This document shows positions 1-13,830 of a stretch of DNA of 22,092 bases, piece after piece (position 1 is the stretch's first letter; every line of letters begins with the position of its first letter). The DNA comes from a virus: positions 1 to 22,092 of the IMG/VR virus record IMGVR_UViG_3300049595_002348. The stretch is one strand, 5' to 3'. The notes under the pieces are model-generated. The model was not told the DNA's origin. It did not search any database and saw nothing but the letters and a program-made list of their open reading frames with translations. The translations under genes and the position numbers were made by a program.

Positions 1-658
1 TGGATACCCCCCCCTGTTTTCCTAAGATTTTTCTTTTTTTATTCGTTTTTTTCCTATTATTTTTCGAAAAAAATACGAACCCACTATTTTTTATAACTTT
101 ATTGTTATTTTTTTTATCAGGTCCAAAACCATGTGCAGCCAATTTTAGAACATCAGTTAAACTCGCATCGCTTTTTCGTCTGTTTGCTTTATTAGATATA
201 ATTTGTACATTACCTACAACATATCCTTTGCTGGCGTCTATTCGATCTATTGATATACCATTGTTTTTTCTTGAATCTGTTAAACTCATAGATGAATATA
301 TTAAATCAATATCTTCATATATCGGACACTTAACTGGTAAAACTGGATATTTTTCTCTAAGATGTTTTATTAAAATACGCGATGAATCATTTATTAATTT
401 AACTTCGTTTTCTCTAGTTCTACTGCAACAATTAGTAGTCAATCTTTCAACTCTTTTCCAACGTGCTTGTTCAGATGTCGCGCATAACTCGTTTGTCTTG
501 TTTCTTTTTTCTTTTTCCTGTTTTGTATGACACGATCTGCAAATTTTTCCACCTCTTTTATATTCATTTTCGTGTATATTATCGCCGGGAATTAAAACTA
601 GCGAACAAACGCAGCATTTTCTTTCTTGATTAAATGTGATGTCCATATTTATTGACAT
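1..658 (-). CDS. HNH-type phage endonuclease, open at the left edge
   Basis: This minus-strand frame stays open from an ATG at 658 to the window edge (219 codons), so its C-terminus is not seen. The N-terminus has two CxxC pairs (C15/C18 and C40/C43), a likely zinc knuckle. Residues 111-166 hold the pattern of small phage HNH/VSR-like nucleases: a CPIYE segment, then SIDRIDASKGYVVGN, then a SNKAN segment. Family members are usually free-standing homing or nicking enzymes that cut DNA and spread themselves. Homologues normally end soon after this block. Here a Lys/Asn-rich tail of about 40 residues follows and reads into a run of eight C at 7-14, so a natural tail, a frameshift or a contig-end artefact are all possible. 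M5 (646) is an alternative start. The opposite-strand frame over this stretch is a shadow. Confidence 0.75.
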   Translation of the reverse strand, partial: MSINMDITFNQERKCCVCSLVLIPGDNIHENEYKRGGKICRSCHTKQEKEKRNKTNELCATSEQARWKRVERLTTNCCSRTRENEVKLINDSSRILIKHLREKYPVLPVKCPIYEDIDLIYSSMSLTDSRKNNGISIDRIDASKGYVVGNVQIISNKANRRKSDASLTDVLKLAAHGFGPDKKNNNKVIKNSGFVFFSKNNRKKTNKKRKILGKQGGVS

Positions 659-819: not shown

Positions 820-1638
820 ATGCGCGTATTAGTTACTGGGGGTTCAGGTTTCATAGGCACTCATTTAATAAATAGGCTGTTGAATGATGGACACGAAATA
901 TATAATATAGACAAAATTCCCAGCCCCGCACTTCCCGATCATCGGCAAAAAATCATAGACATATTAGATGTTGATATTAATGATAATATATTTAAGAATA
1001 TAGATTGTATCATTCATCTTGCTGCAATGGTAAGTGTGCCGAAATCATTTGACGATCCTATAAATTGTTTTGGCAATAATACATTCTTGACTATAAAAAT
1101 ATTATCAGCCGCCAAACTCCATAATATTAAAAAATTTATATTCTCATCTAGCGCAGCAGTGTATGGTGATAAAGAAGGCACTGTTAGTGAAACAGATATT
1201 ACAGAACCAAATAGCCCATATGGATTAGATAAGTTAGTGTCCGAAAAGTATATACAAATGTATTGTCAATTATGGAGTATTGATTATTTAATACTGCGAT
1301 TCTTTAATGTATATGGGGCTGGGCAGAATCCGCAATACGCTGGCGTAATAACTGCATTTAATATCGCCGCACAGAAAAAAGAACCGTTGATTATTTATGG
1401 AGATGGCGAACAAACTAGGGACTTTATAAGCGTAAATGACGTATGCAATTATGTTTCTAGACTATCTATTCTGATGGTTAAGAACGAGATATTTAATATT
1501 GGAACTGGCAACTCTATTTCTATAAATTCACTAGCAAAACAGTTCGGAAATAATATCGTCTATAAAGAAGCAAGAAAAGAAGTGCGGAACTCATGTGCAA
1601 GTATAAATAAATTAAATTCAATATTTAAAAATGTATAA
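820..1638 (+). CDS. NAD-dependent sugar-nucleotide epimerase/dehydratase, short C-terminus
   Basis: This 272-residue protein is an extended short-chain dehydrogenase of the UDP-glucose 4-epimerase type, acting on nucleotide sugars in the cytoplasm. The Rossmann motif GGSGFIG is at 7-13, the SSSAAVYG strand at 109-116 with the catalytic Ser/Thr region, and the Tyr-Lys pair in YGLDK at 134-138. Substrate-side motifs RFFNVYG (160-166) and GDGEQTRDFI (194-203) follow. Relatives usually run to about 310-330 residues. This one stops just after the ARKEVRNS segment and lacks the final helices, so it may be truncated or simply compact. Which sugar it converts cannot be told. Its last eight bases overlap the next gene. 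G+C in 841-1320 is about 32%, well above the gene that follows. Confidence 0.85.
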   Translation: MRVLVTGGSGFIGTHLINRLLNDGHEIYNIDKIPSPALPDHRQKIIDILDVDINDNIFKNIDCIIHLAAMVSVPKSFDDPINCFGNNTFLTIKILSAAKLHNIKKFIFSSSAAVYGDKEGTVSETDITEPNSPYGLDKLVSEKYIQMYCQLWSIDYLILRFFNVYGAGQNPQYAGVITAFNIAAQKKEPLIIYGDGEQTRDFISVNDVCNYVSRLSILMVKNEIFNIGTGNSISINSLAKQFGNNIVYKEARKEVRNSCASINKLNSIFKNV

Positions 1639-3001
1639 AACTTTAATATTTAATTATTATTTCGATAAGAATCAAGAAAGAAATAATGAATTAATATATT
1701 GTTTTGAAAAAAATTTGCAAGCTGGATTTGATTGTATTGTTATTTTTTCAGAAGTAGATATAAATACAGTATATAAAAATATAAATAACAACATATTAAA
1801 AAACTTTAATGGTAAAATTCTTTTTACACAAACAAAATATCGACCAACATTTAATAATTTATTTGAAGTTTCAAAACTAAACTTTTTTGAAAAAGAAAAA
1901 GAGAAATTATTTTTTGTCGCCAATACTGACATATATTTTGAAAATTTAAATAAGGTAGAAGATTTTTATCGTTCGATTGATGATAAAAGTAACACGGTAT
2001 TAGCTTTAACTCGTTGGGATATCCAAAAAGATGGATCTAGTAAACATGTAGATCGAATTGATTCTCAAGACGCATGGATATTTTATGATGTAATTAATTT
2101 TTGTTTAGAATCTGATTTTTATATGGGAATTCCAGGTTGCGATAATAAATTAGCTTATGAATTATATCGCAATAATTATAATATCTTAAATCCTAGCGAT
2201 ACAATAAGAATATATCATTACCATTTAAGTAATATAAGACGATATTTTGATAACGATGAAACTCACGAAGCTTTTCTTGATAAACCTTCAAAAAGAATTG
2301 ATGGCCCATATTATTTATTCGATCAATATGAAAAATTATTAAAAGATAAAGAAAAAAAAAGAATAATATCTTTTTCTTTATTTGGTGATGATCCTAAATA
2401 TTGTATTGGCGCAATTAAAAATGCTAAATTAGCTAACCATATCTATTCAGGATGGATTTGTCGATTTTACATATCTAAAGATGTGAATATATCTTATATC
2501 GATGAATTAAAAAAAATGAATAACACTGAGTTAGTTATAATGAATGAAATTGGAAATTATAATGCTAAATTCTGGAGATTTTTACCGATATGTGATTCTT
2601 CTGTAGATATTATGATATCTAGAGATTGTGATTCTAGATTATGTATGCGTGAAAAATATGCTGTTGATGATTGGATATTGTCAGATAAAAGTTTTCATAT
2701 TATGAGGGATCATCCTTATCATGATGCAATAATAATGGCCGGTATGTTTGGTGTAAAAAAAGGTTGTTTGCCTAATTTCGCTGAACTTTTAAAAAATTAT
2801 GATAAAAATAATAACTATGAATGTGATCAATTTTTTCTTGAAGATGTCGTATACCCTTTAATTAAAAATAATTGTGTCGTTCATGACGAGTTTAAAGAAA
2901 ATAAGCCTTTTCCTACATTAAGATCTTATAATAAAAAATTTGTAGGTGAAATTTATGATGAAAATGATATGCGTTACTCAGAGCATTATAAACTTATTTG
3001 A
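1631..3001 (+). CDS. Two-domain glycosyltransferase
   Basis: This is a 456-residue protein with two different glycosyltransferase-like halves. Residues 1-215 carry an ANTDIYFE segment (T99-D100-I-Y, a DxD-like metal site), LTRWD at 126-130, DSQDAW at 144-149 and PGCDN at 168-172. These are conserved blocks of a GT-A-like family that I know only as uncharacterised viral and bacterial proteins. Residues 244-456 form a second unit with ISFSLFGDD, then SRDCDSR (330-336), REKYAVDDW and MRDHPYH. This is a separate GT-A-like family with a DxD at D332-C-D334. No signal peptide or membrane segment is visible, so action on a cytoplasmic acceptor is likely. The start overlaps the epimerase stop by eight bases, implying translational coupling. 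The gene is very AT-rich (20 of 120 G+C in 1681-1800). Donor and acceptor are unknown. Confidence 0.7.
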   Translation: MYKTLIFNYYFDKNQERNNELIYCFEKNLQAGFDCIVIFSEVDINTVYKNINNNILKNFNGKILFTQTKYRPTFNNLFEVSKLNFFEKEKEKLFFVANTDIYFENLNKVEDFYRSIDDKSNTVLALTRWDIQKDGSSKHVDRIDSQDAWIFYDVINFCLESDFYMGIPGCDNKLAYELYRNNYNILNPSDTIRIYHYHLSNIRRYFDNDETHEAFLDKPSKRIDGPYYLFDQYEKLLKDKEKKRIISFSLFGDDPKYCIGAIKNAKLANHIYSGWICRFYISKDVNISYIDELKKMNNTELVIMNEIGNYNAKFWRFLPICDSSVDIMISRDCDSRLCMREKYAVDDWILSDKSFHIMRDHPYHDAIIMAGMFGVKKGCLPNFAELLKNYDKNNNYECDQFFLEDVVYPLIKNNCVVHDEFKENKPFPTLRSYNKKFVGEIYDENDMRYSEHYKLI

Positions 3002-3041: not shown

Positions 3042-3662
3042 ATGATGATTTCTAGAGAACAATTAGTCAGTATTTTTGAACGAAATAAACTTATAGGAAA
3101 AGGAGTTGAAATAGGATCTTTTGAAGGAGGATACGCGAACCAAATTCTAAAACAATGGTCAGGTAAACTTTACTTAGTTGATGTATGGAGACCATTGGAT
3201 ATTAAGGATTACCAAGATTCTTCTAATCAGCACAATTATAAAAATATTATTAATTCTTGTTTAGATAATATTCGTGGTAATGAAAATAGATGTTTCATGA
3301 TAAGAAGTGATAGCGTCAATGGAGCGGAATTATTTGCTGATGAATCATTAGATTTTATTTATATTGATGCTAATCATAAATATGAATTTGTTAAGCAAGA
3401 TATGCAAATATGGTTTCCAAAATTAAGGCGCGGTGGTGTTTTCGCTGGACACGATTATTTGAAAATGGATTGGTATTCTGATGGAAATTATACAGAAAAT
3501 GGAAAAGATAAACATATTTGGACTCAAACTTCAAGTGGAAAATTTGATAATTACGCAGGACAGTTTGGCGTGAATCCAGCGGTAGATGAATTTTGTAAAA
3601 AACACGGATACAAGTTTGATTTGACAAATGAATGGTTCGCTTCTTGGTATTTTATTAAATGA
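3042..3662 (+). CDS. Class I SAM-dependent methyltransferase (Methyltransf_24-like)
   Basis: This 206-residue enzyme has the SAM-binding glycine loop VEIGSFEGG at 22-30, an acidic residue at the end of strand 2 (D47), and the FIYIDANHKYEFVKQD block at 105-120 with D109. GGVFAGHDY follows at 131-139. This is typical of Methyltransf_24/TylF-like enzymes that methylate sugars or small molecules and often sit in glycan clusters. H111 and H137-D138 are probable metal or active-site residues by family analogy. An ATG at 3045 is an equally good start. The stop is one base before the start of the giant glycosyltransferase gene, so the two are surely co-transcribed. A cap on a sugar hydroxyl is the likely role. 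The true acceptor is unknown. Confidence 0.8.
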   Translation: MMISREQLVSIFERNKLIGKGVEIGSFEGGYANQILKQWSGKLYLVDVWRPLDIKDYQDSSNQHNYKNIINSCLDNIRGNENRCFMIRSDSVNGAELFADESLDFIYIDANHKYEFVKQDMQIWFPKLRRGGVFAGHDYLKMDWYSDGNYTENGKDKHIWTQTSSGKFDNYAGQFGVNPAVDEFCKKHGYKFDLTNEWFASWYFIK

Positions 3663-3663
3663 T

Positions 3664-6600
3664 ATGAATTATTATATAACACATAGCGATAAAAATTATG
3701 TTGAAGTTGCAGAAAAATTATTTAAAAGTCTAGAGTTAAATTCTAATTTAAAAATATTATATTATACAGTAAATTTTGAATATGAAAATAAATTCTCCAA
3801 TGTAATTCCAATACATTATCAAACTAATTTTAAAAAAACTTCTGGTTTTACAGAAGAAAGAAATATAAATAATAATTCTGAATCAGTAAGAGCGAATCTT
3901 TTATTTTTAAAATCTAAAATATGCAATGAATCACTAAGAAATGAAAATGATAATTTTTGCTATTTAGATGCTGATTGTATAGCTGTCGAAAACTGTGATA
4001 AAATTTTTGAAAGCGCAAGTAAAATAACTTCATATCCATTGCTAGGAGAAAATTGTCATGAATATATGATTTATTATGGAAAAGGAAATCCTTTTTTATC
4101 TAATGGCAGTTTAGATTTAAATTTATGTTTAGAAGCGTCATTATTGAAAAAATTAAATATTCCAATTCATAAAAGAACTTCTTTATATAGACAAACTAAT
4201 ATTTTATTATTTAATAAAAAATGCTTAAATATAATTAATGAGTGGGAAAAAATTTGTTATAATTCTGTAGTAACATCTGAATGGAATAAATACGCTTGTT
4301 TTAATGATGAGACTGTATTGAATTGTATATTATGGAGAGACGATATGAATGATCATTTATCCCAAATTTCAATAAATATTCCAGCTAAAGATGATGATGG
4401 TAACTTTGTTGAGCCTAAAAAATTAAATGATTTTATAAATGCTTATAAAAACCCAAAAGATAATGATTTTTATTATGGAACTTTTTGTAAAATCCCTAGT
4501 AAGGATAAAATAAATAATATAAAATTTCTACATGGAAGAGTTTCTGAGGATCAATTTGAATATATTAATAAAAACCTCACTAAACAAAAAAATAAAATCC
4601 AGTATTTTGTCACGCATAGCGATGAAAAATATCTAAGTGTTTGCGAAAAATTATTTGAGAGTTTAGAATTAAATTCTGAATTACAAATTTTATATTATAC
4701 AGTAAATTTTAAATATAAAAATCGTTTTAAAAACGTTATTCCGATTTATTATGAAATAGATTTAAAAAATACTGGTAAAAGCTTAAATTATTCTAATGTA
4801 TTTAATGTAAAAGAAAATGAGGTAGTAAACTTTTTATTTTTAAAGCCAGAAATTTATAATGCGGCTTTAAAATACGGGGATAATGATTATTGTTATATAG
4901 ATGCGGATTGTTTAGCTTTGAAAAATTGTGATGAAATTTTTAAAGAAACTGTAAATATTGTTAATTATCCATTACTCCCTAAAGGTCCGCATGATTATAT
5001 TATTCATGATGGACGAGGAATACATTTTAATAATGATGGAACTTTAAATTTAGATTTATGTCTAGAATCTGATTTATTGAAATTTATTGGATCAGATTCA
5101 AGTAAAAGAACATCTTTGTATAGAACGGCTCACATAGTTCTGTTTAATAATAAATGTAAAGAAATAATACAAGAATGTAAAAATATTTGCAACACGCCTA
5201 AAGTGCTAGAAAACTGGAAGAAATACGCAATAATGACTGACGAAACTGTAATAAATTGTGTATTATGGAAATATAATTATTACAATAACTTAGATCAAAT
5301 TTCTATTCATATACCTTCATTAGAAAACAATTCATTTGTTTCTAATGAAAAATTCGACCAGTTTATAGAAGCGTTTTTAAAACCAAATGAACAAGAATAT
5401 ATGTATGAAAATTTCACAAGAATACCTAACTCTTCTAAAATAGAAAATATAAAATTTTTACACGGTAAAACCAATGATAATCAATTTAAGTTAATAAAAG
5501 AAAAAATATTTATGATAAAAACTCAGAATGAAAAAGAAAATAAAAGTGATTTGTTGTTAATTATTCATAGTTCAAGTCTTGGGGATACTATTGCTGCAAC
5601 TCCAGTTTTAAGAAAATTATATAAGAGTTATAATAAAAAAATTGACATTGTAACTTATCATCCTGAAATTTTTAAGAAAAATAAATATGTAAATATTGTA
5701 CTAGACTATTCATCAACTAACTTAAATAATTTATCTTATAAACAAAAATTTGAAACGTTTTTAGGTGTAGGGGGAATAAAAAATAATCTAGGAGTAGAAA
5801 AAAAGCATAATACAATAGATATTCGTCAATTTCATGCTATTGATCTTGGATTCATGTTGCATGAGAATGAAATGGAATATGATTTTCTAGCAGATGATTA
5901 TATTAATATAAACAATTTACCAGAAAAGTATGTCTGTATTCATGCAGCTAATACTTGGCCGTCTAGAACATATTCAGACGAAAAATTTCAACAACTAATT
6001 GATAAATTAAATAATAATAATATTCCAGTCGTTTTGATTGGAAAAAATTCAATTGAGCGTGGTTATTTTATAATAGATAAACAGACCAAAAAATTATCTA
6101 TAAAAAATGGATTAGATTTAACTAATATTTTAAATTTATCTCAGTGTTGGCATGTTATTAATAAATCTATATGCTTTATTACTATGGATTCTGGGCTTCT
6201 TCATTTAGCTGGAACCACTGATACAAATATTATTCAGTTAGGATCTTCTATAAACAATAAATTAAGAGCGCCATATCGTAATGGTTCTCAAGATTATAAA
6301 TATAAATACATAAGCGGTTCATGTAATGTATTTTGTGCATCAGATATTAAATATGGTGTCAAAGAATGGGGAAATATTCAAGGAGTTCCTCCGTTAATAA
6401 ATTGTTTAGAAAACAAAAATACTTTTGAATGCCATCCTAATTCAGTAGATATATATAATTATATAATTCAGAATTTTATTAATTTATTTGATTTAAAAAT
6501 AGATTTATTTAATTTAGATACGAGTGATATTAATAATGTCATTATTAACTATAGATCTAAAAATGGTAATATAAATAATTGTCGTGTTAAACTATTAGAT

Positions 6601-8430
6601 ATTCAAACTAAAACGATTCTTTATGAAGGTTGTATAAGTATAGAACAAGGAATAGATTATTGGACTAGTGTCGGTAATATTTCTACAATTATATCAAATG
6701 ATATTCGCGTATTATTTTTTGATAAAGATGTCATAATTTTTGATAAAATATATAAAATACATAAACAAGACAGAAAGACTCCGGTTAGTCATTTATGTTT
6801 TAATTATGATTTACATTCTTCTAATTTATATGAAATATACATATGCAAAGATTATGAATATAAAGATATTAAAATAGAAACAGATGATGTTGTAGTAGAT
6901 ATAGGTTCGAATCTATCAACTTTTATACATTACGTTTTAGAGAATAATGCTAGTAAAGTTTATTCTTGTGAGCCAGCATCATATTGTATAAAAATAATTA
7001 ATAATTATTTCAAAAATAATGAAAAAGTAATAATTAATCCAATAGCTATCTCTAATAAAAATGATTTTTGTTTTATCGAATCTTTATCTGATGGATGTGG
7101 TTCTAACAAATTGACTTATGCAGAAGCTAATAACAAGTCGTCATATATTAATTGTAATACAGAAAAAGTAAAAACTCAAACTTTTAAAACTTTTATCGAA
7201 AACAATGATATTAAAAGTATAGATTTTTTAAAAGTTGATTGTGAAGGTTCGGAAGTTTTCATATTCGTCGAAGAAAATAAAGATTTTTTTAAAAATAAAG
7301 TTCATAAAATTGCTATTGAATACCACAACAAAGAAAAAGATAATATAATTTCTTATCTTAAATCTTTGAATTATGAAGTTTATGAAAAAAATAATTCTTT
7401 TGGAGAAGTCGTTATTGGAATGATTTATGCAAAAAACAAAAGTTTTAATAAACAACCTATAACTTTATTTTTAGCTCCTCATCTTTCAACTGGTGGATCA
7501 CCAGCTTATTTAAAATGGTTAATTGAGGAAAATATTAAAAAAAATATTAAACCTGTAGTCATTGAATACTGTAATTATGGCGCATACGAGGTTCAAAAAA
7601 AAGAAATTATAAATTTAGTTGGCAAAGATAATTTTCATACTTTTGGTAACCACTGGGATTCAGATTTAGAATATGACGAAAAATCTCTGAATTTAATAAA
7701 ATTAATTGAAGATATTAATCCGTCAGTTATTCATTTAAATGAGATTTCTGAAATATTTAGTTTGAAAAAGATGACTTCGTCGTTATTTAAATATCTATAT
7801 TCTAAAAATAGAAAATTCAAACTAGTCGAAACATCACACACTTCAGAATTTAATTTTCATAATAAATATTATTTGCCGGATAGGTTTGATTTTTGCACAT
7901 CGCATCATTTAGAAAAAAGCGAACACCTAAATGTTGAAAAAAATATTGTTGAAATGATTATCCCAAATAAACTTAGGCCAAATAGATCAGAAACATTGAA
8001 AAAACTTAATTTGTCTGAAAATTATTTTCATGTCTTAAATGTTGGATTGTTTACAAAAGATAAAAATCAAAAATATTTATTTAATTTAGCGGAAAGACTA
8101 CAAGATAAAAAAGTTGTATTTCATTTTGTCGGTAACACATGTTATTATGATGATTGTGAAATAACCGAAAAACAAAAGGTATTATCAAATTGTGTTTTAT
8201 GGGGCGAAAGAAATGATGTAGATATATTTATGTCATGTATGGATTTATTTGCTTTTCCATCTTTAAAAGAATTGAATCCCATATCTATTAAAGAAGCTTT
8301 AAGTTGGAGCATGCCATGTTATATAAATTATCTTGAAACTTATGGTGAAAAATACGATAATAATCCGTTAATAAATTACATACAAAACGATAATTTATTC
8401 AAATTACTAAATAATTTACCTTATGTATAA
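3664..8430 (+). CDS. Giant five-domain glycan enzyme: GT-GT-GT9-FkbM methyltransferase-GT4
   Basis: This is a 1588-residue protein. Residues 2-305 and 312-620 are two copies of one GT-A-like domain, each with a D-A-D metal motif (D102/D104 and D413/D415). Residues 630-940 are GT9 (heptosyltransferase-like): SSSLGDT at 636-642, MDSGLLHLAG at 841-850, and cysteines C887, C891, C914 and C923. A probable beta-rich linker follows. Residues 1060-1250 are an FkbM-type methyltransferase (VDIGSN at 1078-1083, VDCEGSE at 1191-1197). Residues 1268-1588 are GT4 with TGG near 1276-1278 and the donor-site pair E1536-x7-E1544. The ATG at 3664 is chosen because homology between the two copies begins there. 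An in-frame ATG at 3628 lies inside the previous gene. The stop overlaps the next start by eight bases. No frameshift or stop breaks it. It likely builds and caps several linkages of one glycan in the cytoplasm. Confidence 0.85.
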   Translation: MNYYITHSDKNYVEVAEKLFKSLELNSNLKILYYTVNFEYENKFSNVIPIHYQTNFKKTSGFTEERNINNNSESVRANLLFLKSKICNESLRNENDNFCYLDADCIAVENCDKIFESASKITSYPLLGENCHEYMIYYGKGNPFLSNGSLDLNLCLEASLLKKLNIPIHKRTSLYRQTNILLFNKKCLNIINEWEKICYNSVVTSEWNKYACFNDETVLNCILWRDDMNDHLSQISINIPAKDDDGNFVEPKKLNDFINAYKNPKDNDFYYGTFCKIPSKDKINNIKFLHGRVSEDQFEYINKNLTKQKNKIQYFVTHSDEKYLSVCEKLFESLELNSELQILYYTVNFKYKNRFKNVIPIYYEIDLKNTGKSLNYSNVFNVKENEVVNFLFLKPEIYNAALKYGDNDYCYIDADCLALKNCDEIFKETVNIVNYPLLPKGPHDYIIHDGRGIHFNNDGTLNLDLCLESDLLKFIGSDSSKRTSLYRTAHIVLFNNKCKEIIQECKNICNTPKVLENWKKYAIMTDETVINCVLWKYNYYNNLDQISIHIPSLENNSFVSNEKFDQFIEAFLKPNEQEYMYENFTRIPNSSKIENIKFLHGKTNDNQFKLIKEKIFMIKTQNEKENKSDLLLIIHSSSLGDTIAATPVLRKLYKSYNKKIDIVTYHPEIFKKNKYVNIVLDYSSTNLNNLSYKQKFETFLGVGGIKNNLGVEKKHNTIDIRQFHAIDLGFMLHENEMEYDFLADDYININNLPEKYVCIHAANTWPSRTYSDEKFQQLIDKLNNNNIPVVLIGKNSIERGYFIIDKQTKKLSIKNGLDLTNILNLSQCWHVINKSICFITMDSGLLHLAGTTDTNIIQLGSSINNKLRAPYRNGSQDYKYKYISGSCNVFCASDIKYGVKEWGNIQGVPPLINCLENKNTFECHPNSVDIYNYIIQNFINLFDLKIDLFNLDTSDINNVIINYRSKNGNINNCRVKLLDIQTKTILYEGCISIEQGIDYWTSVGNISTIISNDIRVLFFDKDVIIFDKIYKIHKQDRKTPVSHLCFNYDLHSSNLYEIYICKDYEYKDIKIETDDVVVDIGSNLSTFIHYVLENNASKVYSCEPASYCIKIINNYFKNNEKVIINPIAISNKNDFCFIESLSDGCGSNKLTYAEANNKSSYINCNTEKVKTQTFKTFIENNDIKSIDFLKVDCEGSEVFIFVEENKDFFKNKVHKIAIEYHNKEKDNIISYLKSLNYEVYEKNNSFGEVVIGMIYAKNKSFNKQPITLFLAPHLSTGGSPAYLKWLIEENIKKNIKPVVIEYCNYGAYEVQKKEIINLVGKDNFHTFGNHWDSDLEYDEKSLNLIKLIEDINPSVIHLNEISEIFSLKKMTSSLFKYLYSKNRKFKLVETSHTSEFNFHNKYYLPDRFDFCTSHHLEKSEHLNVEKNIVEMIIPNKLRPNRSETLKKLNLSENYFHVLNVGLFTKDKNQKYLFNLAERLQDKKVVFHFVGNTCYYDDCEITEKQKVLSNCVLWGERNDVDIFMSCMDLFAFPSLKELNPISIKEALSWSMPCYINYLETYGEKYDNNPLINYIQNDNLFKLLNNLPYV
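3667..5516 (+). repeat. Tandem duplication of a glycosyltransferase domain inside one gene
   Basis: The segments 3667-4580 and 4597-5516 encode the same roughly 300-residue domain twice. Shared stretches include THSD near each start, KLF.SLELNS, ILYYTVNF, the D-A-D-C motif, RTSLYR, DETV.NC.LW, and FLHG near each end. The DNA is also visibly alike, for example around 3756-3776 and 4690-4710, so the duplication is probably recent or under gene conversion. Confidence 0.85.
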
Positions 8431-10486
8431 GCATAAATTTGGAATAGTTACTTCATTTTATAATACAGAAGAATTTGTTGATAGCGTTTTCGAGTCAATA
8501 CTAAATCAAACTTATAAAAATTGGGTTTATTTTGTAACTGATGATGGAAGCTCCGATAGAACGAAAGAAAAAATTTTAAAATATTGCGACAATATAAAAA
8601 TATTTTATGTTGAACAAAAATTTAAAAAAGAAATGTTCTGGCAACCGCAGCGTTTTATAACTGAAGATTGTGATTATCTTATAACGATGGACTCTGATGA
8701 TTATGTGTTGCCAAAAGCACTTGAAGTTTATAATAATGCTTTAAATGAATATAAAGATAAAAATATAGTATTTATTTCTTGCGACTCTGCTTGGATGAAC
8801 GATAAAATGACTTCTTTATTAAATTATACATATGTATATCATGATAAATCATATTATTTAAATGATAATGATGTTGAAAGAAATAGAAGAGGTATTGATA
8901 GAATTTCGCCAAATACTTTTGGAAGTTTTCGTGGAATAAAAAATATAAAAGGATTGGATTTTGGAGTGAACTCTTATAATGCTGCTGGAAACAATGATAT
9001 GTTGCATACTGGATTGTTACAAAATTTTGGAAATTCATTAATTATTCAAAGAAATTTGTACAAATATAGATATAGAACAAATAGTATATCGCATAAAATA
9101 TTAAATAATAACGAATGGAATCACACGGTATTAATAAGAGATATTTTAAAAGATAAAGTAACTAATTTTGATTGCCGAGTTATTAACATGGAATTTAAAA
9201 ATCTTTATACAGATTTTTGTTCTTTATTGATGTGTGAAGAATTAGCAAATATTAATAGTGATTATAGAGTTAATTTAATAACTAAATTTATTAACAAAGA
9301 TTTTAGTCATTTAAAAAATCTTTATAAGGAGCATTTTATAGATATAAATAATTTTGTTGATGATTTCGATTTTTATGTACTGAATTTAACTGATTATGAT
9401 TTAGACAATAAAGATGAAATAAAAAAAATTATTAACTATGTAAAATCAAAAAATTTTTATAAAATAGTTTTATATTATCATGATCGAAGAGATTCTTCAG
9501 AAATAGAAAGTAATCCAAAATATAATATTGAAAAAATTGATAAAATACTTTCGCAATATTTTTCAACTTATTATTGGGCGAGTTATTATAGAAACACTTC
9601 TTATATGTCAGAAAATTTAAACTATGTTAATATAAAAAACTCTATTAATATCGTGAATGAATCTCCGAGTTTAGGTGATTGTATAGCGTGGGTTCCGATA
9701 GTAAATGAATTTGCAATAAAAAATAGAACAAAAGTTAACTTGTACACTCCAAATAAAGAAATATTTGTAAACGAATATCCAATGATAAATTTCTTCAACT
9801 ACTCAGAAAAGCCAGATAATAATATATCAATAGGATGTTTTGATGATAAAAAGTGGCGACCAATTTCTTTACAACAAGTGGCTTGTGATATTTTAAAACT
9901 AGATAATAAGGAAATTCGTTGTAAACTAGATTTTAATAAAACTAAAAAATCTAATTTTAATAAAAAATATGTTTGCATAGCCACTCAATCAACTGGTCAA
10001 TATAAATATTGGAATAGAGAAAATGGATGGATACAAGTTGTTGACTATTTGAAAAATCTAGGTTATGATGTTGTTTGTATTGATAAGCATTATTCTTTTG
10101 GTAATGCAGAAAAAATGAATGTTATTCCATATAACGCAATAAATAAAACTGGTGATTTGCCATTAGAAGACAGAATTAATGATTTATATCATTGTGAGTT
10201 TTTCATAGGTTTGGGATCTGGATTGTCTTGGTTAGCGTGGGCATGTGAAAAACCAGTGATTATGATTTCAGGTTTTTCTGATCCTATATCAGAATTCTAT
10301 ACTCCATATAGAGTTCATAATAAAAATGTTTGCAATAGCTGTTGGAATGATTTTACATGTACATTTGATAGATCTAATTGGTTATGGTGTCCAAGAAATA
10401 AAAATTTTGAATGTTCACGCGAAATAACATTTGACATGGTAAAAGAAAAAATAGATCTTTGTATCAAAGATTTATCAAATAAATGA
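8423..10486 (+). CDS. Fusion of a GT2 glycosyltransferase and a BAHT-like heptosyltransferase
   Basis: This is a 687-residue protein. Residues 1-230 are a GT2 (GT-A) domain with DDGSSD at 40-45 and TMDSDDY at 88-94, the metal- and nucleotide-binding motifs. Residues 230-400 are mostly helical and unrecognised. Residues 407-687 are GT9-like: SLGDC at 416-420, LGSGLSWLAW at 597-606, then C637-x2-C640-x15-C656-x7-C664 within a WLWCPR...NFEC context. That cysteine finger and its surrounding residues match bacterial autotransporter heptosyltransferases (TibC family), in which four cysteines bind iron and the enzyme glycosylates serines of a protein. The fusion suggests consecutive transfer steps. 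C646 is an extra cysteine. The start overlaps the giant gene by eight bases, and the stop overlaps the next gene by four (ATGA). Sampled G+C is about 22%. Confidence 0.8.
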   Translation: MYKHKFGIVTSFYNTEEFVDSVFESILNQTYKNWVYFVTDDGSSDRTKEKILKYCDNIKIFYVEQKFKKEMFWQPQRFITEDCDYLITMDSDDYVLPKALEVYNNALNEYKDKNIVFISCDSAWMNDKMTSLLNYTYVYHDKSYYLNDNDVERNRRGIDRISPNTFGSFRGIKNIKGLDFGVNSYNAAGNNDMLHTGLLQNFGNSLIIQRNLYKYRYRTNSISHKILNNNEWNHTVLIRDILKDKVTNFDCRVINMEFKNLYTDFCSLLMCEELANINSDYRVNLITKFINKDFSHLKNLYKEHFIDINNFVDDFDFYVLNLTDYDLDNKDEIKKIINYVKSKNFYKIVLYYHDRRDSSEIESNPKYNIEKIDKILSQYFSTYYWASYYRNTSYMSENLNYVNIKNSINIVNESPSLGDCIAWVPIVNEFAIKNRTKVNLYTPNKEIFVNEYPMINFFNYSEKPDNNISIGCFDDKKWRPISLQQVACDILKLDNKEIRCKLDFNKTKKSNFNKKYVCIATQSTGQYKYWNRENGWIQVVDYLKNLGYDVVCIDKHYSFGNAEKMNVIPYNAINKTGDLPLEDRINDLYHCEFFIGLGSGLSWLAWACEKPVIMISGFSDPISEFYTPYRVHNKNVCNSCWNDFTCTFDRSNWLWCPRNKNFECSREITFDMVKEKIDLCIKDLSNK

Positions 10487-11663: not shown

Positions 11664-12405
11664 TATAAACTTATATATAGAATATTCTAAATTTATGCAG
11701 AATGCTATATTAGAACAAAATATTCCATGCTATTTAATTGGAGGGGCTTTAATAAATTGTTTGAGAGATAATGGAAAATTGTTAACAGATGATATAGACT
11801 TTGCTATTATATTCGATGGTAATTTTAGCGATATATTGAAAATACTTGAAAAGTCTGGATTGCTATTTAGTTGGGAGTGTTTTAATTCTATACTTCGTAT
11901 ATTCCCGCTTTGTAGAAAAGAATTGAAAATTGAGTTGTTTTTATTTGTTAAGCGTCATGTAAATTATTACATGTATGAGGCGCACTGGCCTCATGAGCGC
12001 ATATCTAGTTTTCAGACTTTTAAAGAACAAAAAGTAGTTTTAGAAAATAAAGAGTTTGTAACATTTTTTAAACCAGAGTTGTTCTTAACCACGGTTTATG
12101 GTGATTGGCGTCAAGCTCAAAATGCTTATTTTTGTAGAAAAGGAGGGGACACAACACATTTAAAAGATTGCATTTTTTATACAAATGAAGACAACTATGA
12201 TAAAATAGATTTTCAAGTTGAAAATCTAAAAATAATTTTTAAAACCGTTTCTGTAAAAAGAAATTTGGAAAAAATAGATGACAGTAAAATCAATATCTTT
12301 GATAATTTTTATTCTGAACAAGTTTCAAAAGAAACTAATTTGTTTTATAGTGATTTTGTAAAATTCTTTATCAAAGAAAAAATTAAGTATTTCGATCTTC
12401 AATAA
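11644..12405 (+). CDS. LicD/fukutin-like nucleotidyltransferase-fold transferase
   Basis: This 253-residue protein has the LicD signature: GGALINCLRDNG at 33-44, then TDDIDFAI at 48-55 with two metal-binding acidic residues, IELFLF at 96-101, and YGDWR at 152-156. LicD and fukutin-type proteins move a phosphorylated alcohol (phosphocholine, ribitol phosphate or similar) from its CDP form onto a glycan. That role is known for the family and fits here because a CDP-forming enzyme lies next door on the opposite strand. The last roughly 85 residues are not recognised. The start overlaps the upstream gene by 20 bases. The 3' end overlaps the 3' end of the cytidylyltransferase by 23 bases, leaving no room for a terminator between them. 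Sampled G+C (36%) is above the big glycosyltransferase genes. Its donor cannot be told. Confidence 0.75.
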   Translation: MINTQSDINLYIEYSKFMQNAILEQNIPCYLIGGALINCLRDNGKLLTDDIDFAIIFDGNFSDILKILEKSGLLFSWECFNSILRIFPLCRKELKIELFLFVKRHVNYYMYEAHWPHERISSFQTFKEQKVVLENKEFVTFFKPELFLTTVYGDWRQAQNAYFCRKGGDTTHLKDCIFYTNEDNYDKIDFQVENLKIIFKTVSVKRNLEKIDDSKINIFDNFYSEQVSKETNLFYSDFVKFFIKEKIKYFDLQ

Positions 12406-12787
12406 TTTTTTTTATTATATCTGAAGTGCATATACCACTTGTTCTTTCTAATAAAATTAATTTTCCGTCGCTTACTGGATAAAAATATTTTAAAAATTTT
12501 TCGTTTTCTTTTCCGGTAAACATACAATCAGCTTTTAGTTTTTCTAATAATTCATCAGTTGTTATTAAATCTGCGTTTTCGTAGATTTCATCGACATATT
12601 TGCATGAACGTATGATTTCTAGCCTGTTATTATAACTAATGACAGGTTTTCTTTTTTTATAACTGATAACCTGCTCATCATTATGAACACCCACAATAAG
12701 TTTATCACAATTTTCTTTTATCCTTCTTAGCATATTAACATGACCAATATGAAATAAATCGTAAACCCCATTTGTATATGCTGTCAT
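12383..12787 (-). CDS. TagD-like cytidylyltransferase
   Basis: This 134-residue protein matches the usual length of glycerol-3-phosphate cytidylyltransferase. It opens with TNGVYDLFHIGH, giving the HxGH CTP-binding motif at 13-16. YNNRLEIIRSCKYVD at 52-66 and RTSGICTSDII at 115-125 follow. The last corresponds to the family's RTxGISTT motif with Ser to Cys and Thr to Ser changes. Such enzymes join CTP and a phospho-alcohol to give a CDP-activated donor (glycerol, choline or similar). Substrate is not readable here. The ATG overlaps the stop of the GT4 gene upstream on this strand by four bases, so both form one short operon. With the convergent LicD-like gene it makes a plausible donor-plus-transferase pair. 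Confidence 0.85.
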   Translation of the reverse strand: MTAYTNGVYDLFHIGHVNMLRRIKENCDKLIVGVHNDEQVISYKKRKPVISYNNRLEIIRSCKYVDEIYENADLITTDELLEKLKADCMFTGKENEKFLKYFYPVSDGKLILLERTSGICTSDIIKKIIEDRNT

Positions 12788-13830
12788 AATATTAAAGATT
12801 CAAATATATATTCATAGTAATTACATTGTTTTTCTAAAGTAAATTTTAAAATAGCATTTTTATAACAATTTTCAGGATTAATTAATTCATCTATATTTTG
12901 GATGGCATAAATCATATCGTTTACGACGGAACATCTTAATCCAGTTTCTCCTTGTAGTACCGTTTCAGTAAAACCGCCAAAATTTGTTGTAATGGTAGGC
13001 GTTCCTGAAAATTGAGCTTCAATAACTGTCCAATTGCATGGCTCCATAAACAAAGAAGGAGCAAATAAAAATTTTGAATCGCTTAATAAATTCATTCGTT
13101 GAATAGGATCAACAAATCCAGTGAATTTACAATGTTTAGTTTCTTTAAGGTTTAAGATATTTGGTCCTGCAAAAATAATATCTTGCCCAATATAATTACA
13201 AATATCGTAAGCTAATTTAGCTCCTTTTTGTTCGGTAATTCTACCTAAAAATAATGCTGTATTTGATTTTTCTTTTTTATATATAAAATCATTCGTATCA
13301 AAACCAGGATACACAATATATTCATGTCCTAAAGAAATATTTGTTGCAGAACTTCCGTGCATTTTGTGCATTTGACTATATGTTTCAAAGATTTTAATCG
13401 GAGCAAACATGCTATCATATCCAATGCTTGGTTCTACTACGATAGATTTATCATAAAAATGTTTAACGCACGGTTCATGAGCAAATCCAAACCAGCATAA
13501 TATAAATTCGTTATTTGATTTTATTCTTTTATTTAATTCAATAATACAATTATCATTAAATATTTTTATAGCTTCTGTTCCTACATTTTGATCGAATCCT
13601 TTAATCTTCCAATCATTTAAGTTGCCATAACTCTTTTTTAATATATCATTATTAATAACATTAATATGTTCTGTGCAGTTAACAATAGAATCTTCATGAC
13701 CATAATGATAAACAGTATGTCCTCTTTTTGTCATTTCGTCGCAGAACTTGTAAACTTTTTGAACAAACGCGCACAATGAAACATTTTTGTTAGTTGGCGA
13801 ATAAGGTACGCTCAAACAGTGAAAAACCAT
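12784..13830 (-). CDS. GT4-family glycosyltransferase
   Basis: This 348-residue enzyme has the GT-B fold features of family GT4. The N-terminal half includes the MTKRGHTVYHYG strand at 33-44. The C-terminal half has FLGRITEQKG at 194-203 (donor-phosphate loop), FTGFV at 236-240, and the EPCNWTVIE block with the donor-binding pair E263-x7-E271, followed by GGFTE and GETGLR. Retaining transfer from a nucleotide sugar is expected. No membrane segment is seen. It is the first gene of a two-gene minus-strand operon whose second gene is the cytidylyltransferase. Its start lies only 27 bases from the divergent PhoH-like gene. A TATATT sits two bases upstream of the ATG, and no Shine-Dalgarno sequence is present. 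Confidence 0.85.
   Translation of the reverse strand: MVFHCLSVPYSPTNKNVSLCAFVQKVYKFCDEMTKRGHTVYHYGHEDSIVNCTEHINVINNDILKKSYGNLNDWKIKGFDQNVGTEAIKIFNDNCIIELNKRIKSNNEFILCWFGFAHEPCVKHFYDKSIVVEPSIGYDSMFAPIKIFETYSQMHKMHGSSATNISLGHEYIVYPGFDTNDFIYKKEKSNTALFLGRITEQKGAKLAYDICNYIGQDIIFAGPNILNLKETKHCKFTGFVDPIQRMNLLSDSKFLFAPSLFMEPCNWTVIEAQFSGTPTITTNFGGFTETVLQGETGLRCSVVNDMIYAIQNIDELINPENCYKNAILKFTLEKQCNYYEYIFESLIL

Follow-up and report, generated by a model that had tools for sequence, protein, structure and literature searches.

A modular family of glycan-enzyme fusions in aquatic phages with a candidate role in fibre O-glycosylation

Background

Phage glycosyltransferases are usually read as anti-restriction or anti-superinfection tools, whereas the TibC/Aah family of autotransporter O-heptosyltransferases (BAHT), whose hallmarks include an N-terminal beta-barrel domain and a dodecameric assembly, glycosylates protein side chains. 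The key residues of TibC are the catalytic D110, Lys-230 and an iron finger formed by C339, C342, C358 and C370 (PMC4358343). Multidomain viral glycan enzymes are known from the chloroviruses (PMC7826918). In the papers searched, from a PMC collection with few subscription journals, we found no account of a phage BAHT, of the fused phage family, of its link to GSS-repeat fibres or of glycosylation of collagen-like fibres. A relative of the protein described below is encoded in the deposited genome of Microcystis phage Mel-JY01, where it is annotated just as "methyltransferase FkbM".

A fused gene for five glycan-enzyme domains

The window, that is, the whole stretch of viral DNA analyzed here (22,092 nucleotides; IMG/VR record IMGVR_UViG_3300049595_002348), contains a gene that, in the original prediction, was proposed to encode a single unbroken chain of 1588 residues with two DAD-type glycosyltransferase domains, a GT9 domain, an FkbM methyltransferase and a GT4 domain. 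The open reading frame and all five domains were confirmed, and a beta-rich segment was found in addition (Table 1). The frame is open already from ATG 3628, which would yield a 1600-aa product; ATG 3664, yielding 1588 aa, follows the stop of the upstream gene by 1 bp and agrees with the MNYxxTHxD start conserved in all relatives.

Table 1. Features of the glycan-synthesis cassette in the window (positions in nucleotides)
Feature	Position	Strand	Evidence and remarks
NAD-dependent nucleotide-sugar epimerase/dehydratase (sugar donor supply)	820..1638	+	
Methyltransferase (Methyltransf_24)	3042..3662	+	ends 1 bp ahead of the fused gene
Fused glycan-enzyme gene, 1588 aa, DAD-DAD-GT9-beta-FkbM-GT4	3664..8430	+	open frame, Pfam, own HMMs
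DAD domain 1, GT-A fold glycosyltransferase	3664..4599	+	aa 1-312, DAD at about aa 102-104; alignment, AlphaFold, VIA
DAD domain 2, tandem copy	4600..5529	+	aa 313-622; 46% identical to domain 1
GT9a domain, TibC/WaaC-like	5530..6543	+	aa 623-960; D641; four invariant Cys 887, 891, 914, 923
Beta-rich segment	6544..6843	+	aa 961-1060; between GT9a and FkbM
FkbM methyltransferase domain	6844..7431	+	aa 1061-1256; motif I DIGSNLS altered
GT4 domain	7432..8427	+	aa 1257-1588; STGGSP loop and EX7E (E1536, E1544) intact
Next gene, 687 aa, GT2 + TibC/Aah-type O-heptosyltransferase	8423..10486	+	overlaps the stop of the fused gene
GT9b/BAHT domain	9323..10483	+	TIGR04414 281 bits; iron-finger Cys 637, 640, 656, 664 of the 687-aa product
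Second BAHT-like protein, 274 aa	10483..11307	+	183 bits to TIGR04414, slightly under the cut-off
Adenylyl/cytidylyltransferase-like protein (HldE- or G3P-cytidylyltransferase-like), possible donor supply	12383..12787	-	
Stand-alone GT4 (phrog_3408)	12784..13830	-	conserved beside the cassette

The nearest relative (L001) is 80-86% identical and has the same domain order without the second DAD domain. In this comparison, dN/dS is 0.12-0.20 for DAD1, GT9a, FkbM and GT4 and 0.33 for the beta-rich segment, so every domain compared, FkbM included, is constrained. The recurrence of the order in L001, the fused variants in ~20 further phage contigs and the dN/dS range of 0.12-0.33 together argue that the fusion is not an artefact; misassembly and lost stop codons were accordingly rejected, given purifying selection and fusion in many independent contigs. 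As a separate observation, the synonymous divergence (pS) from L001 is 0.36 for DAD1 and likewise for the beta-rich segment, below most other parts compared (about 0.5-0.6), and for DAD1 this is a possible sign of recombination.

The original prediction also held that each domain keeps its key residues. This was borne out for the DxD motif of both DAD domains, D641 of GT9a and E1536/E1544 of GT4, all present and invariant in the alignments, but only in part for FkbM, whose SAM motif I is DIGSNLSTF both in the window and in L001, compared with DIGxNxG in the 7 other copies listed. The FkbM assignment as such comes from PF05050 (49.8 bits, aa 1079-1238, E 5.5e-13) and TIGR01444 (61.8 bits), both above cut-off, and the beta-rich segment accompanies the FkbM module wherever the latter is inserted in close relatives. 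For GT4, the Pfam Glycos_transf_1 match covers aa 1442-1552 (E 1e-9), with a VIA Z of 22 to GT4 structures.

Neither DAD domain had a match in the Pfam search, and a sequence search of PDB found no relative. The AlphaFold model of DAD1 (mean pLDDT 85, pTM 0.87, against pLDDT 49-61 in the four remaining, far weaker models) has a GT-A fold, with VIA Z 16.3 to GT6 (1g8o) and 15.5 to LgtC (1g9r, GT8); with their DxD motifs, the DAD domains resemble GT6/GT8-like GT-A glycosyltransferases. The tandem DAD arrangement was found only in the window's phage among those retrieved. In the domain tree, DAD1 groups with the DAD domain of L001 (99/99) and DAD2 is the sister to both (95/95), a topology that fits a duplication before the split of the two lineages followed by loss in L001; DAD2, a long branch in the tree, could instead have been acquired.

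The GT9a domain (Pfam GT9 match at aa 748-871, E 1.3e-11) gave a model with VIA Z 19-21 to WaaF, WaaC and TibC (19.0 for TibC), and its four cysteines align with the iron finger of TibC. In the window protein it did not match TIGR04414 at E 0.01, and the L001 copy scored 23.9 bits; as judged by sequence, GT9a is a BAHT homologue that falls below the family cut-off rather than a member.

A TibC/Aah-type domain in the overlapping gene

What the original prediction missed is that the machine continues into the next gene, which overlaps the stop of the fused gene by 8 bp, ATGTATAA, a stop-start overlap conserved in L001. A programmed frameshift was considered at this overlap and set aside, as no obvious slippery site was seen by eye. 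The C-terminal domain of the second product, GT9b, exceeds the curated 200-bit cut-off of TIGR04414 (NCBIfam, autotransporter O-heptosyltransferase family). A profile comparison with TibC (4rap; E 4.5e-70) aligns the four iron-finger cysteines as well as the catalytic Asp and Lys-230; the Asp lies in an LGD motif and is invariant in the alignment, and the Lys falls within a KYW motif. Thus, in family score, iron finger and catalytic Asp and Lys, GT9b has the hallmarks of a BAHT. GT9a and GT9b are related to each other (97.6% probability), with their four cysteines aligned. As regards the N-terminal beta-barrel domain of BAHTs, the TIGR04414 match in the window begins at profile position 63, and in fused relatives a barrel-like segment precedes GT9b. 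Homology of this barrel to the beta-rich segment before FkbM was too weak to be claimed (hhalign probability 19%).

The match to this family recurs in other phages: each of the 13 machine-bearing IMG/VR records tested has a TIGR04414 hit above the cut-off inside a long frame, and so do Mel-JY01 (317 bits) and a 735 kb megaphage (305 bits); in most relatives, the TibC/Aah-type domain sits on the same chain as the other modules. GT4 and a protein-directed O-heptosyltransferase are thus the domains that stay constant in the machine. Because a TibC-type protein O-heptosyltransferase belongs to the machine, the acceptor is likely a protein and not a free glycan.

Some flanking genes may supply sugar donors; for ADP-heptose, the caveat is that the adenylyl/cytidylyltransferase-like protein falls far below the cut-off of the HldE profile. 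Between the epimerase and the methyltransferase, a 456-aa protein (1631-3001), 72% identical in L001 and without a family match, is a candidate glycan enzyme. At the left edge of the window, there is an HNH/endonuclease VII-like gene (2-658, minus strand). A TerL search for the host of the window's lineage returned distant matches only, to phages 22-27% identical.

Module gain, loss and exchange in related phages

Four scans of viral contigs, run with the whole protein and with domain profiles, retrieved about 75 contigs, and the architectures of the relatives were called with HMMs built in this analysis. They define a family of fusion proteins of about 850-1900 aa, found in many aquatic phage contigs, with the core DAD-GT9-GT4-GT9b. 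Around this core, whole modules have been added, dropped, doubled or separated in frame. Many contigs encode DAD-GT9a-GT4-GT9b. Insertion of FkbM gives DAD-GT9a-FkbM-GT4-GT9b (L002, L029) and, with a further GT2-like module, the 1891-aa protein DAD-GT9a-FkbM-GT2-like-GT4-GT9b (L003), whereas L001 splits the machine into two genes, DAD-GT9a-FkbM-GT4 and GT2-GT9b. Other forms include DAD-GT4-GT9b (L039), GT9a-GT4-GT9b (L046, L091), GT4-GT2-FkbM-GT9b (L051) and, in L060-L072, GT4-GT2-GT9b either on its own or combined with FkbM; a more distant phage (L086) encodes a 1914-aa FkbM-sugar transferase-methyltransferase-DAD-pyruvyltransferase-GT4-GT9b protein. In every architecture except L076, GT4 stands before GT9b. 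The architecture search thus found the core order again in further viral contigs. The domain order that had seemed unfamiliar is a modular variant of a large family and not a unique fusion, and, among the phages retrieved, only its tandem-DAD form is peculiar to the window's.

Module changes are seen even between phages in which neighbouring genes are 95-99% identical. Between the window and L004, the PhoH, sigma and g15731 proteins are 99% identical and TerL 95%, compared with only 42-71% for the machine domains, which are also split differently; hence, the machine has been replaced or is diverging far faster than its surroundings. The window (region 12383-13830) and L004, with four core proteins at 95-99% identity and a strongly different machine, are thus a clear example of cassette replacement at a local scale.

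Fusion might serve only co-expression in equal amounts, with the domains acting independently in different pathways and no assembly line. This is a minority possibility in our estimate: the same domains occur as separate genes in L001, L004 and the window's 8423 gene, and no packing between the domains is predicted (pTM 0.40), but the order DAD, GT9a, GT4, GT9b is kept across many contigs and the domains remain clustered even when split. For the single-chain assembly line that had been proposed, a conserved multi-enzyme chain, the core order and purifying selection were found; the methylation step, in contrast, is put in doubt by the altered SAM motif of the window's FkbM domain.

Several contigs have features of their own. 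Just upstream of the machine in a 127.7 kb relative (G002), the region 4759-8842 of contig L122 encodes proteins of 623 aa, with a DAD-like domain at its N-terminus, and of 213 aa, together with a Nod-type carbamoyltransferase (phrog_1601), which suggests carbamoylated sugars. In a 64 kb record (G007), the locus L073 (1321-4831) contains two in-frame TGA codons in the GT4 frame, one of them where Gly would fit the GT4 motif, and eight in the downstream TibC match, so that TGA is probably translated in this phage, as either Trp or Gly. Genome contigs scanned with the GT4 profile for a bacterial source yielded one close match and weak ones in Bacillota and others. The close match is a DAD-GT9a-GT4-GT9b frame (L113, 3217-6444) in a 6.4 kb contig from a Candidatus Lokiarchaeota bin; this contig looks viral and probably belongs to a phage that was placed in the wrong bin.

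Gly-Ser/Thr-Ser repeat fibres as candidate acceptors

Machine loci that were not chosen for proximity to GSS repeats lie close to genes for repetitive, fibre-like proteins. In at least six other lineages, the closest GSS/GTS-repeat gene, with up to 252 triplets (60-97% Ser/Thr), is separated from the machine by 99-2333 bp. In the L060-L072 group it follows downstream after 409-423 bp, in the same orientation; in the L077-L085 group it is convergent, at a distance of 720 bp. The spacing is 2.3 kb in L075, 1.9 kb in L076, 1.7 kb in Mel-JY01 and 99 bp in LR756501. For the lineage of the window itself, the fibre genes are some 13-17 kb downstream, and the window stops short of them. The 127.7 kb relative has two fibre-like genes downstream of the terminase, with runs of 52, 81 and 89 Gly-Ser/Thr-Ser triplets and almost no proline. 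In Mel-JY01 (L126, 2-3052), the plus strand has an open frame of 1016 aa that contains 149 Gly-X-Y triplets, and the CDSs annotated there are on the other strand; the annotation as deposited may have the strand wrong.

Pfam collagen/GSS repeats over cut-off were detected in 20 of the 23 machine-bearing records (17 of 19 from IMG/VR, 2 of 3 from the phage collection, and one BAHT-positive control), compared with 3 of 27 control records chosen by PhoH profile; the machine-bearing records below cut-off are G007, G016 and W03. TIGR04414 was run on part of the 23, and in the BAHT-positive subset, with W03 counted as positive by an HMM built in this analysis, the repeats were present in 13 of 15 (Fisher p 2e-6; 6e-5 when each lineage, as grouped by us, contributes a single record), p values that are optimistic because the records are partly related and because of fragment length. 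AIDA/autotransporter repeats, considered as an alternative acceptor, were rejected, as none was found in 11 records.

The fibre association and the protein-directed family of GT9b bear on two other readings. Phage glycosyltransferases are commonly interpreted as modifiers of the host surface, for example, in pelagimyophages (PMC7029224), and GT9a also resembles LPS heptosyltransferases, so the machine could alter the LPS core or O-chain and block superinfection. We consider this unlikely given that the constant partner domain belongs over cut-off to the BAHT family, not to WaaC/WaaF, and that the machine repeatedly adjoins genes for Ser/Thr-repeat fibres. Still far less probable is glycosylation of modified bases that would shield phage DNA from nucleases, a commonly proposed role of such enzymes (PMC10202952): the TibC family targets protein side chains, the searched parts of the window contained no recognisable gene for modified-base synthesis, and the fibre association would be left unexplained.

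Proposed mechanism and implications

From the domains observed and their conserved catalytic residues, rearrangement and purifying selection, together with the family of the initiating domain and the association with GSS fibres, we infer an acceptor, a donor, an order of action and a biological role: the fused protein and its overlapping partner probably form a swappable phage machine that O-glycosylates fibres. The TibC/Aah-type domain would initiate the glycan at Ser/Thr residues in a repeat-rich phage fibre, most likely one with Gly-Ser/Thr-Ser repeats; the GT4, GT9a, DAD and GT2 domains would extend it, and FkbM would O-methylate it where active. The donor may be ADP-heptose. The neighbours of the gene include an epimerase, an adenylyl/cytidylyltransferase-like protein and additional glycosyltransferases. 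Since modules come, go and are exchanged in frame, the glycan coat would be quick to vary from one close relative to the next. Against fibre glycosylation stand the altered SAM motif of the window's FkbM, the three records lacking collagen repeats over threshold, the end of the window ahead of any fibre gene, the score of the adenylyltransferase below the HldE cut-off, and the low pTM (0.40) for the placement of the domains relative to one another. The beta-helical autotransporters on which known BAHTs act likewise count against a fibre acceptor.

More tentatively, the whole could work as an assembly line of glycan modules, with a logic like that of modular peptide or polyketide synthases, in which the TibC-type domain loads the first sugar on Gly-Ser/Thr-Ser fibres and further in-frame modules set the composition. 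If so, insertion, loss and duplication of modules would rewrite the sugar coat of the virion among otherwise near-identical phages, and the family would represent a natural set of swappable glycan-synthesis modules for fast surface variation. Contrary to the usual reading of phage glycosyltransferases, the family suggests that proteins of virion fibres are glycosylated, and the long Gly-Ser/Thr-Ser repeats offer an acceptor that can be tested; the relative in Mel-JY01, a named phage, makes the idea testable at the bench.

Comparison with known systems

Multidomain viral glycan enzymes and BAHTs are both already known; what is possibly new is the organising principle. Like TibC and Aah (TIGR04414; PDB 4RAP, 4RB4), GT9b exceeds the family cut-off and keeps the catalytic Asp, the Lys-230 equivalent and the four-Cys iron finger. 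Unlike them, the phage domain is fused to, or encoded in a gene overlapping with, other glycosyltransferases and an FkbM methyltransferase, and its acceptor is probably a GSS-repeat fibre rather than an autotransporter beta-helix. Furthermore, TibC is described as adding heptose alone, whereas the phage machine has further modules.

The chlorovirus PBCV-1 proteins A064R (two glycosyltransferases and a methyltransferase, 638 aa) and A111/114R (three glycosyltransferases) are likewise virus-encoded and multidomain and assemble and methylate the glycan of a virion protein, and the fused protein shares with them the combination of several glycosyltransferases and a methyltransferase in one viral chain. 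This is a comparison by architecture; PBCV-1 is a eukaryotic virus with an N-linked capsid glycan, other glycosyltransferase types, 2-3 domains and no TibC domain. The capsule multienzyme of Actinobacillus pleuropneumoniae serotype 3 (PDB 8QOY), which appears in the Foldseek list, is also a long chain with several glycan-synthesis domains, but it makes a capsule polymer, lacks the DAD-GT9-FkbM-GT4-TibC set and superposes poorly (rmsd 30). A functional parallel is BclA of Bacillus anthracis, a collagen-like spore protein carrying an O-linked short glycan that ends in a 2-O-methylated sugar: its Gly-X-Y repeats bear the glycan, but the protein belongs to the spore coat, the glycan is rhamnose-based and its biosynthesis genes are separate.
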